From: Acidobacteriota bacterium
GTDB lineage: Bacteria; Acidobacteriota; Thermoanaerobaculia; Gp7-AA8; JAHWKK01
Length of the DNA stretch: 55,265 bases
NCBI GenBank assembly: GCA_019347945.1
Contig: JAHWKK010000026.1
Span: 1-55,265 of the forward strand
Direction of reading: 5' to 3'
Under the pieces are notes generated by a model that worked only from the letters and a program-made list of their open reading frames with translations, was not told the DNA's origin and did no database searches. Position numbers and translations under genes: made by a program. Below are positions 15,391 through 55,173 of the stretch, piece after piece; the first letter of the stretch is position 1; each line of letters begins with the position of its first letter.

Positions 15391-15965
15391 TGTCGCCCGC
15401 TGAAGCGGGCTTCACACAGAGGAGCACCCGCGTTTCTGTCCCCCGGCTGAAGCCGGGGGCTAATCTCTGACGCCGCCTTTGGCGGCTTTTTCAGTTGGGT
15501 TCGCCGAAGGGTGGGAGGGCGAATCTGTCGCCCCTCCGGGGCTCGAATCTGTTACGTCTTTGGACCCGGGGTTTCGCGGCTTCGCCGCTCCACCCCGCGC
15601 TACTTTCTGTCGCGCCTCCGGCGCTGGATACGCGCTCGCGATCCTGTCTGCTCAATACAAAAGGATCGATCTGCCCCGGCAGGCGCGACATAAGATCGAT
15701 CCGCCCCGGCAGGGGCGGTCAGAGAGTAGCGCGGGGCAAGGCCGGCGCCGCAGGCGACGGGCCGCAGCCCCGGGACTGACGTCATGCGCACATCGAGCCC
15801 CGGAGGGGCGACAGAGCGCCGAATATTCGAAGAAGCGCTAAGGCTCGCGTGATATCCAGCTCCGGTACAGCCCGCGCCAGCGGGCGAAAGATCTTAGCCC
15901 CCGGCTTCAGCCGGGGGACAGGGGCGTGCTCCAAAATGGTGTCGAGCCCGCTTCAGCGGGCGACA
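15391..15965. repeat. Terminal-inverted-repeat element, copy A
   Basis: A gene-free stretch of about 575 bases bounded by inverted ends. The left end has TGTCGCCCGCTGAAGCGGGC (15391-15410) and a CCCCCGGCTGAAGCCGGGGG palindrome (from 15440). The right end has the same two modules inverted (15894-15917 and 15945-15965). Inside are further small palindromes (gccgcctttggcggc at 15472, gcccctccggggc at 15530). Segments 15525-15628 and 15692-15813 recur in reverse orientation in copy B. Open frames here are translated repeat, and no transposase is present. Confidence 0.85.
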
Positions 15966-18815: not shown

Positions 18816-19457
18816 TGTCGCCCGCTGAAGCGGGCTTAACACAGAGAGGCGCCGCGTTTCTTTCCCCCGGCTGAAGCCGGGGGCTAATCCCTGACGCCGC
18901 CTTTGGCGGCTCTGTCGGCTTCATCCATCGATCGAACCTGGGGAGATCAATCAGTCGCATTCGATTCTGTCGCCCCTCCGGGGCTCGATGTTTGCGCTGA
19001 CGTCAGTCCCCGGGGCTGCGGCCGTCGCCTGCGGCGCCGGCCTTGCCCCGCGCTACTGTCTGACCGCCCCTGCCGGGGCGGATCGATCTCTATGACCTCT
19101 GCCCGGGCTATCCGATCTCATGTCGCCCTCCCGAGGCGGGTCGATCTCTGTTCATTGAGAGACGTTTCGCCTTCTCGACGGATGTGCGGCGCTGTGGGAA
19201 GGGGCACGTTCCAGCGCCGGAGGCGCGACATAAAGTAGCGCGGGGTGGAGCGGCGAAGCCGCGGAACCCCGGGTCCAAAGACGTACCAAAATCGAGCCCC
19301 GAAGGGGCGACAGAATGCTGGCATTCCGGGATTGCGGCGCTCGCCAAAACGTCCGCCGCCGCTCAGCCCGCACCGCGGGCGACAGATCTTAGCCCCCGGG
19401 TTCAGCCGGGGGCTAGGGTAATCCACAAGAATGTCGAGCCCGCTTCAGCGGGCGACA
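18816..19457. repeat. Terminal-inverted-repeat element, copy B
   Basis: About 640 bases with the same inverted ends as copy A (left modules at 18816 and 18865, right modules at 19389-19412 and 19437-19457). The end modules have the same orientation as in A, but the core segments 18963-19090 and 19210-19316 are the reverse complements of A 15692-15813 and 15525-15628. The core is thus flipped relative to A. No gene is present. Confidence 0.85.
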
Positions 19458-19856
19458 GAATCAAACGCGACGAACGCATCGACCTCAGCTTCGAACGTGG
19501 TCGCTGTTCTGTCGCCCGCTGAAGCGGGCTCACACGTTTCGAAACGAGGCATCTGTCCCCCGGCTGAAGCCGGGGGCTGAGAACTGTCGCCGCCTTCGGC
19601 GGCTTTGCCGGTTGCGTTAGTTTGAGCGCGCCTGCAACGATCAACGCATTTGGCCTGGGTTCTTTCGCCTGCGCTTCGCCGGGCTCAGAATGACCAGTGT
19701 CGGTTTTGCGCGAGAGCGGGCCAAGACAGAATGGCTTTCAGGTAACATTTCGGTGGAACGCAACGGGGCGGCTCAGCAGGAGCTTCGCCCTCCCGGTGAT
19801 GCTGGACATCACGCAAGCTCGTCACGGTGCCGGTAACCGGCAACCGGTAACCGTCT
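19458..19856. repeat. Mosaic of further repeat modules upstream of mlaD's end
   Basis: A half-copy of the element end occurs at 19510-19603 (TGTCGCCCGCTGAAGCGGGC, the CCCCCGGCTGAAGCCGGGGG palindrome, gccgccttcggcggc). It is followed by a cgcttcgccgggctcagaat module (19671-19690) and a module ggcggctcagcaggagcttc with its flanks (about 19720-19840) related to the core of heptamer element E2. I see no gene in this stretch. Confidence 0.75.
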
Positions 19857-53756: not shown

Positions 53757-53984
53757 GGAAGAGTGAAGAGTGAAGAGTGAAGAGTGAAAGGAATGCTTGA
53801 CTGGGAGGGCGAGCCTCCGGTGAGCCGCGATCCTGGAAACCGAACCTGAAACCCGCAACGATCTGGGCGGTGTTTGGCGCCCGCTATCCAATCCCGCCAG
53901 ATCGCGGCTCGCCAGAGGCTCGCCCTCCCGCTGGTACGTGGCGAAAGGCTGTTCTTTCTTTCACTCTTCACTCTTCACTCTTCT
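53757..53984. repeat. Heptamer-bounded intergenic element E6
   Basis: Left array with three perfect TGAAGAG units (53764-53784), a core of about 170 bases, and inverted CTCTTCA units at 53964-53977 with degenerate copies after. The core has an imperfect 30-base inverted repeat (53802-53831 and 53901-53930) of the same sequence family as the 28-base repeat of E2. The stop codon of the thioredoxin-like gene (53975-53977) is inside a repeat unit. No gene. Confidence 0.87.
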
Positions 53985-54571
53985 TTTCTCTCTTCTTTCT
54001 CTTTCATGTCGAGGACGTCGGCGCTCGTCGCCCAGCGGGAACCGTGGTGGCGGACTGCGAGCTCTTTCCAGATTTTCGACAGCGCATCGAAGCCTTCGCG
54101 TTTGTAAGCCACCGCCCCCTGCCAGTACATCACCTCAGCGTGAACCTCGTCGATGCTCGTGAGGCTCGCGGCGATGTCGAGCGCGGCGGCCGCCGCGTCC
54201 GGCTCGTTCCCCACGAGCCGATCGAGGGCGAGTGCCATGTGAAGCCGGGCGCGAAACTCTTCAGGCGGAAGCCAGCCGGTCCACCGCGCCACCTCCGAGC
54301 CTCGGCCATTCAGAACGACGAACATCGGTGCCCAGATCGGTTTCGCCGAGCGGAAGAGATGACGAAGCTCGGGTTGGGGCTCGCGAATGTTCACCTGAAC
54401 GCTGATGAAACGCGCGGCGAGGAGCTCCTGGACAGCGGCGTCGGGGTACGTCACGGCACCCATCTTCCGGCATCCGAGTCAGCCGGGGGACCACATTTCC
54501 AGCAGGATCGGACGACCCGTTTCAGCGCTCAGCGCGGACGCTTCAGCCCACGGAATCCACTCGACCGCCAT
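53975..54571 (-). CDS. Thioredoxin-like selenoprotein (in-frame TGA read as selenocysteine)
   Basis: Reading from ATG 54571 the frame meets TGA at 54481-54479 and continues open to a second TGA at 53977-53975, 198 residues in all. The first TGA falls inside a thioredoxin active site: W27-S-P-G-U31-L-G-C34-R-K-M, which aligns residue for residue with the F-W-A-x-W-C-G-P-C-R-M-I of thioredoxins, U31 at the position of the first redox cysteine. A cis-proline segment follows (A-P-M-F-V-V-L-N-G-R-G). Upstream (P-I-L-L-E-M-W) and downstream halves make a thioredoxin domain only when joined. A hairpin with SECIS features starts 17 bases after the TGA. The C-terminal half is helical and ends in charged residues (K-E-K-E-E-R-K-E-E) coded by repeat element E6. 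Cysteine and not Sec, or a decayed gene, are the alternatives. Confidence 0.8.
54444..54461 (-). promoter_or_regulatory. Candidate bacterial SECIS element
   Basis: Read on the mRNA, 17 bases after the UGA, GGGUGC pairs with GUACCC (six pairs, one G-U) around the loop CGUGAC. The loop begins 24 bases after the UGA and has G as its second base. A small stem with a guanine among the first two loop bases, roughly 15-40 bases from the UGA, is the known pattern of bacterial SECIS elements recognised by SelB. Judged by eye only, without an energy calculation. Confidence 0.6.
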
Positions 54572-54612
54572 CGTGTGATCGTAGCAAAAACGACCGCGCG
54601 ACGACCTGATGG

Positions 54613-55173
54613 TCAGTTCGGCTTCTCGGAGCCGGGAACCCACGCGACGGATCGCGCCTGGCTCCGTTCGGTCGCGGTGGCCCACAACTCCTTCGGGTCG
54701 GAGAAGAGAAGGTCTTCATGAGGGGGCATGACGGTCCAGACCTCGTTCGCGATCTCGCTCGCGAGCTGTCCGGGCCCCCAGCCGGCATACCCGAGGATCA
54801 GCCGCAGCTCCTCTGGCGGATTTGCGGAGATCCGCCCGAGGACGTCGAGTGAGAGGGTCATGCGAAGGTCGTCCATCTCGAAGATCGATTCTCCGATCGG
54901 CTCGGCGGAACGGTAGAGGATCAACCCGGAGGTCGGTTCGACCGGGCCACCGAACCAGGCCGTCGCATCCGGCCGGCCGGCCCATTCGATGTCGAAGCGC
55001 TCGAGGACCCGCGCCAGCGGGATCTCGGTTGGGCGATTGAGGATCACTCCCGCGCTGTACTCCTCCTCGTGACCAGTCAGCAGAATCACGCTCTCGAAAA
55101 AAAAGGGATCGAGCACGTGGCCGGTGGCCACGAGCAGACATGGAGCTCTCAGAAACTGGATCGTCTCCCCCAC
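54613..55173 (-). CDS. yqgE: YqgE/AlgH family protein (UPF0301)
   Basis: A 186-residue protein with the YqgE signature: F-L-R-A-P-C-L-L-V-A-T near the N-terminus (usually L-L-I-A-x-P), a D-P-F-F-F-E-S-V-I-L-L-T-G-H-E segment, G-V-I-L-N-R-P-T, the F-G-G-P-V pair, and L-I-L-G-Y-A-G-W-G-P-G-Q-L-A-S-E-I. The family is widespread and probably cytoplasmic; its function is not settled. It lies 41 bases upstream of the selenoprotein gene on the same strand and may share a transcript with it. Confidence 0.93.
   Translation of the reverse strand: MGETIQFLRAPCLLVATGHVLDPFFFESVILLTGHEEEYSAGVILNRPTEIPLARVLERFDIEWAGRPDATAWFGGPVEPTSGLILYRSAEPIGESIFEMDDLRMTLSLDVLGRISANPPEELRLILGYAGWGPGQLASEIANEVWTVMPPHEDLLFSDPKELWATATERSQARSVAWVPGSEKPN

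Follow-up and report, generated by a model that had tools for sequence, protein, structure and literature searches.

Two short open reading frames on the minus strand of a 55,265-nucleotide stretch of acidobacterial DNA (the window), at 54479..54685 and 53975..54463, lie in one frame, separated by a TGA (54481-54479) and the five codons CTC GGA TGC CGG AAG. Does this TGA end a gene, or does it encode selenocysteine (Sec) within a longer one? A preliminary description of the locus favored Sec, joining the two frames into a single thioredoxin-like protein of the host. Here we describe the joined gene, its homologues, the RNA hairpin that follows the TGA, the Sec machinery of the host genome and the probable function of the product.

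The joined gene and its product

The gene (53975..54571, minus strand) starts with the ATG at 54571, comprises 198 codons and ends at the stop TGA 53977-53975. No obvious Shine-Dalgarno sequence accompanies the start codon. With the internal TGA read as Sec, translation of 54571-53978 gives 198 residues including ...MWSPGULGCRKMGAVTYP..., in which U occupies position 31 (54479..54481) and the TGC at 54470..54472 encodes Cys34, the resolving cysteine of the UxxC motif. The joined protein contains a thioredoxin domain, as had been proposed, with matches to Thioredoxin_7 (6e-9), Thioredoxin_2 (1.7e-8) and Thioredox_DsbH (2.2e-8), all above the Pfam cut-offs. The match to PF13098 scores 35.2 bits (cut-off 27), and the redox motif reads U-L-G-C. 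Judged from sequence, the TGA at codon 31 is almost certainly read as selenocysteine.

The homologue family and codon 31

Homologues were collected from a phylum sample of 396 genomes (the phylum of the host) and from a Desulfobacterota sample of 395 genomes (the phylum of Desulfatitalea; profile search). In the former, nearly all of the best full-length matches contain exactly one stop, a TGA; a further ten homologues, obtained by searching the proteins of named genomes, are in records from Armatimonadota, Nitrospirae, Deltaproteobacteria and Chloroflexi. The preliminary description had treated the protein as a one-off, which proved wrong: it belongs to a large selenoprotein family spanning several phyla. 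In an alignment of 36 full-length sequences, the column of U31 holds a TGA in 34, whereas the other two, L023 and L044 (the latter probably a more distant relative), have Cys there. The Cys at +3 is invariant (36/36). Bacterial selenoproteins are recognized by an in-frame UGA that aligns with Cys or Sec of homologues, which is the pattern found here. The earlier argument that chance would hardly place a TGA at this residue, with the second redox cysteine retained, is thus upheld by the alignment. There and among further Cys forms, homologues carry Sec or Cys at position 31; their lack of both had been named as a refuting condition.

A single stop codon in a lone assembly may stem from an error, and the TGA might accordingly be a nonsense mutation or sequencing error in a pseudogene or artefact. 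We regard this as extremely improbable for the window gene, since the TGA column is common to 34 of the 36 homologues from several phyla, the frame is otherwise intact, and a SECIS hairpin and complete Sec machinery (both described below) are present. For the family as a whole, conservation refutes it.

Alternatively, the UGA could act as a stop, with the working product a shorter protein of 162 amino acids initiated at the ATG at 54463, six codons past the TGA, from which the frame is open to 53975. Such a product would have no redox site, because strand 1, residue 31 and Cys34 would all be missing. Moreover, the family conserves residues 1-30 but not M37, the putative initiator of the short product, which is Leu or Thr in other members. 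A short product is therefore very improbable.

The family is common in Desulfobacterota, where it is mostly in the Sec form: matches at E 1e-30 or better occur in 84/395 genomes, and 80 of the 91 matches contain one TGA. The Cys forms of this phylum have CxxC or CxxS at the redox site, and CxxS replaces CxxC in several Cys-form homologues (L098, L101-L104, L106). The second cysteine is thus not always retained once Sec is absent. Among plasmid records there was one match, which is partial and covers the thioredoxin domain only.

Within the family, the window protein is divergent and lies on a long branch, with L020-L022 as its nearest relatives (identity up to 36%). Two genomes of the same order as the host (G029 and G278) carry copies belonging to another clade (L033 and L042). 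Lateral transfer or old paralogy may lie behind the placement of the window copy apart from these.

The SECIS hairpin

The published model of the bacterial SECIS element (PMC13188914) specifies a stem of 4-16 bp, a loop of 3-9 nt with a G within its first two positions, a spacing of 16-37 nt and an energy of at most -7.5 kcal/mol. The hairpin GGGUGC-CGUGAC-GUACCC (54444..54461, minus strand) lies within all of these limits, with a 6-bp stem, a 6-nt loop with G in second position, a loop placed 23 nt after the UGA and an energy of -8.0 kcal/mol. A SECIS element, which the preliminary description proposed to look for after the TGA, is thus present, and its pairing covaries across phyla.

In 18 homologues, all 108 of 108 stem cells are paired, and none of 500 shuffles reaches this level of pairing or of covariation. 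When the partner is shifted by 1 to 3 columns, the pairing falls to 28-65%. Columns 23/36 form G-C in 11 sequences and A-U in the other seven, with no mispair. At the protein level, this couples Gly or Asp at +7 (GGT or GAT) to the codon for Tyr at +11, through its silent third base (TAC or TAT). Other wobble positions of the stem are fixed even among proteins less than 50% identical; for example, the only codons for Thr or Ser at +10 are ACG and TCG. This first hairpin type occurs with 6/6 pairs in 44 of 61 Sec genes; 5.5% of random synonymous recodings keep the stem.

A second hairpin geometry is found in 16 of the 61 Sec genes, with the loop nearer the TGA (16 nt after the UGA). Its sequence is CUCGGC-UGGAA-GCCGAG or, in L073 and L077, AACAGC-UGGCA-GCUGUU, the pairs using different bases at three positions. 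All covariation in this type comes from L073 and L077; RNAalifold applied to the first 15 sequences of the type returned only four pairs and no covariation. The remaining gene (L029) has neither geometry but its own, slightly shifted hairpin, while L025 is able to form both and is counted as type 1 by geometry and type 2 on the tree.

A quickly built tree implies at least two switches of hairpin type, and on it the key pair goes from G-C to A-U or back about six times, each side changing six times. When only well supported branches are considered, there are three independent covarying pairs, all or nearly all in one direction, a number with which a sign test cannot reach significance. L073 and L077 group with carriers of the first class, yet their hairpin, located in the 50 bases that follow the TGA, has second-class geometry and different bases, which suggests replacement of the SECIS element at a fixed UGA. 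With compensatory pairs across phyla and two geometries at one UGA, the family offers a natural data set on the upkeep of a SECIS hairpin inside coding sequence.

Selenocysteine machinery of the host

The host genome (3.72 Mb in 49 contigs, 99.65% complete) contains all four of the components that Sec insertion would demand of it according to the preliminary description: SelA (453 bits, cut-off 267.9), SelB (355 bits, cut-off 242), SelD (352.8 bits, cut-off 125) and tRNA-Sec (68.9 bits, gathering score 47; called by ARAGORN as tRNA-SeC with anticodon TCA). The selD gene (L016, G000:C24, frame from 337) itself has one in-frame TGA, at SGGU27ACK (SGGUACKLG), a context corresponding to the UxxK motif of selenophosphate synthetase catalogued in PMC13188914. 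Because of this TGA, the host appears, on the same kind of evidence, to insert Sec at UGA in one further gene at least.

UGA reassignment is known from other lineages, and decoding of this UGA as Trp, or as Cys by a suppressor tRNA, would require no Sec system. We consider this possibility negligible, as the homologue column has Cys but never Trp, many family genes (the window gene included) end in TGA, and there is a covarying SECIS together with tRNA-Sec, SelA and SelB.

TGA-bearing genes are nearly confined to genomes with SelA, which half of the Cys-form genomes lack. In the phylum sample, SelA is present in 24/24 genomes with a TGA homologue compared with 253/396 overall (hypergeometric p 1.4e-5, a value that assumes independent genomes although some are related). 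It is also present in 10/10 of the homologue genomes from the separate database search (the ten named). In Desulfobacterota, 66/70 Sec-form genomes have SelA, as against 5/10 Cys-form genomes (Fisher p 0.001), the latter comprising nine from the Desulfobacterota sample and G321, which lacks SelA. Four of the 70 Sec-form Desulfobacterota genomes (G410, G446, G482 and G556) carry the homologue in its TGA form yet gave no match to SelA, for which incomplete assembly or recent loss may be responsible.

Genomic neighborhood

The reported neighbor yqgE is present at 54613-55173 and ends 41 bases upstream of the gene; its identity is based on size, position and the identification made by the earlier reader. 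Among the homologue loci examined, no YqgE-like protein flanks the gene, and the neighborhood therefore carries little information. Apart from those of close relatives, these loci have few adjacent open reading frames in common.

Directly past the stop codon lie two nested inverted repeats (53758-53983). The outer arms (53765-53793 and 53955-53983) form a GAAGAGT heptamer array, and the inner arms are at 53803-53832 and 53900-53929. Partial copies of the repeat are found at about 150 sites across the genome, the identity reaching 88% over some 143 bases. The stop codon and the unconserved tail of the gene sit at the edge of this element, and the last residues (KEKEERKEE) extend beyond the conserved end of the family. 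Elsewhere in the window, there are three matches to the Acido-Lenti-1 RNA above the gathering score (15440-15487, 18864-18911 and 19557-19604), which point to a host among the acidobacteria.

Domain architecture and proposed mechanism

An AlphaFold2 model computed with 35 family members (pLDDT 94.9, pTM 0.90) places the thioredoxin domain at about residues 1-112 (54236..54571, minus strand), in accordance with the Pfam matches and with fold matches, the best of the latter including the thioredoxin 2lst and DsbD-gamma. Residues 113-198 (53978..54235, minus strand) form a TPR-like helical domain, with predicted helices at 103-120, 124-137, 141-159, 161-174, 179-184 and 187-197 spanning the end of the thioredoxin domain and the tail. 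The helical C-terminal extension noted earlier is thus seen in the model, in structure matches of the helical part to TPR domains, in the alignment, and in TPR Pfam models that match up to 18/35 family members. Many helical repeats score alike, and we therefore claim only a general TPR-like arrangement. No signal peptide is apparent, and the N-termini in the family begin directly in the thioredoxin domain, which suggests a cytosolic location.

It is highly probable that the gene encodes a cytosolic, Sec-dependent thiol-disulfide oxidoreductase, similar to DsbD-gamma and carrying a TPR adaptor, whose UGA is decoded through SelB and the hairpin. This explanation builds on the frame, the conserved UGA, the hairpin with its covariation, the Sec machinery and the fold prediction, from which we infer the actual insertion of Sec, the redox direction, the cytosolic location and the role of the TPR part. 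In the proposed mechanism, the hairpin at 54461-54444, just downstream of the UGA, would recruit SelB, which would deliver tRNA-Sec for the insertion of Sec at codon 31. The product would consist of a cytosolic DsbD-gamma-like thioredoxin domain with the redox site U-L-G-C, fused to the TPR-like helical domain. The selenolate of Sec31 would act as the nucleophile on a substrate disulfide (or another oxidized thiol), and Cys34 would resolve the mixed selenylsulfide, roles that follow established thioredoxin chemistry. The probable role of the TPR part is to dock partners or clients of the enzyme.

With Sec retained, the protein could instead serve mainly as a chaperedoxin-like holdase or adaptor, a small analog of CnoX/YbbN, rather than as a plain disulfide reductase. 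The combination of a thioredoxin domain with TPR helices, the match of the C-terminal part to TPR domains and the occurrence of YbbN chains (3qou and 3qdn, E 2.2e-5 to 2.6e-5) among the Foldseek matches are in favor of such a role. However, the YbbN alignment is poor over the full length (TM about 0.38, rmsd 11-12), the thioredoxin part is closer to DsbD-gamma and 2lst, and Sec points to a catalytic redox role. A primarily holdase function is therefore unlikely, although its probability is appreciable, and the oxidoreductase is the preferred assignment.

Comparison with known systems

The thioredoxin domain of the window protein shares its fold and about 24-26% identity with DsbD-gamma (1uc7, 2fwf). 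The protein differs from DsbD in lacking the membrane and N-terminal domains, in having Sec in place of the first Cys, and in the addition of the TPR tail; against the model of the three-domain membrane protein (NF001419) it scores 31.8 bits (cut-off 330), over model residues 473-571 only. The best match of the thioredoxin domain, both by sequence and by Foldseek, is the Thermus thermophilus thioredoxin 2lst, which has Cys where the window protein has Sec, is 130 residues long and has no TPR domain. CnoX/YbbN chaperedoxin (3qou, 3qdn) has the same order of a thioredoxin domain followed by TPR helices but is longer, and superposes poorly over the full length. CnoX/YbbN is not known to contain Sec.

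Other thioredoxin-fold selenoproteins, namely the VPGUxxT, TsoB and Trx7/PDZ proteins (NF041383, NF045694 and NF041199), give weak matches and differ from the window family in motif and architecture. The window protein is far below the cut-offs for TsoB (29.2/805 bits) and VPGUxxT type 2 (23/275), and has no listed match to Trx7/PDZ. No NCBIfam model matches it above cut-off, and automatic annotation may therefore cut many such genes at the UGA.

The closest likeness is to selenoproteins of the PF13098/UxxC type, which have been in catalogues since the 2000s. A 2026 review (PMC13188914) distinguishes 119 families or subfamilies of prokaryotic selenoproteins, one of them "Thiol:disulfide interchange protein, PF13098, UxxC", with WP_011366075.1 as the reference (tables of PMC13188914 and PMC9312934); an ocean survey (PMC2398784) has the entry "Trx-like 2 (thiol disulfide interchange protein), cd02953, UxxC"; and a 2006 survey (PMC1794560) assigns three proteins of this kind to Syntrophus aciditrophicus, Geobacter metallireducens and G. 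uraniumreducens. The first two entries are probably the same. The window family shares with them PF13098 (matched by 35/35 members), UxxC, the thiol-disulfide oxidoreductase fold and carriers among Deltaproteobacteria.

That the family is instead distinct and uncatalogued, a widespread group of Sec-thioredoxin/TPR proteins acting as seleno-chaperedoxins, with two SECIS hairpins replacing one another at the same UGA, is a tentative proposal that we consider rather doubtful. The accessible parts of the catalogue accounts describe neither a TPR architecture nor the present hairpin, and we did not find the TPR fusion, the family size or the two hairpin geometries described there. In our assessment, the window protein is a selenoprotein of an already known kind. 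Since all members match PF13098 and Desulfobacterota commonly carry the family, it may be identical to the catalogued thiol:disulfide interchange protein family.
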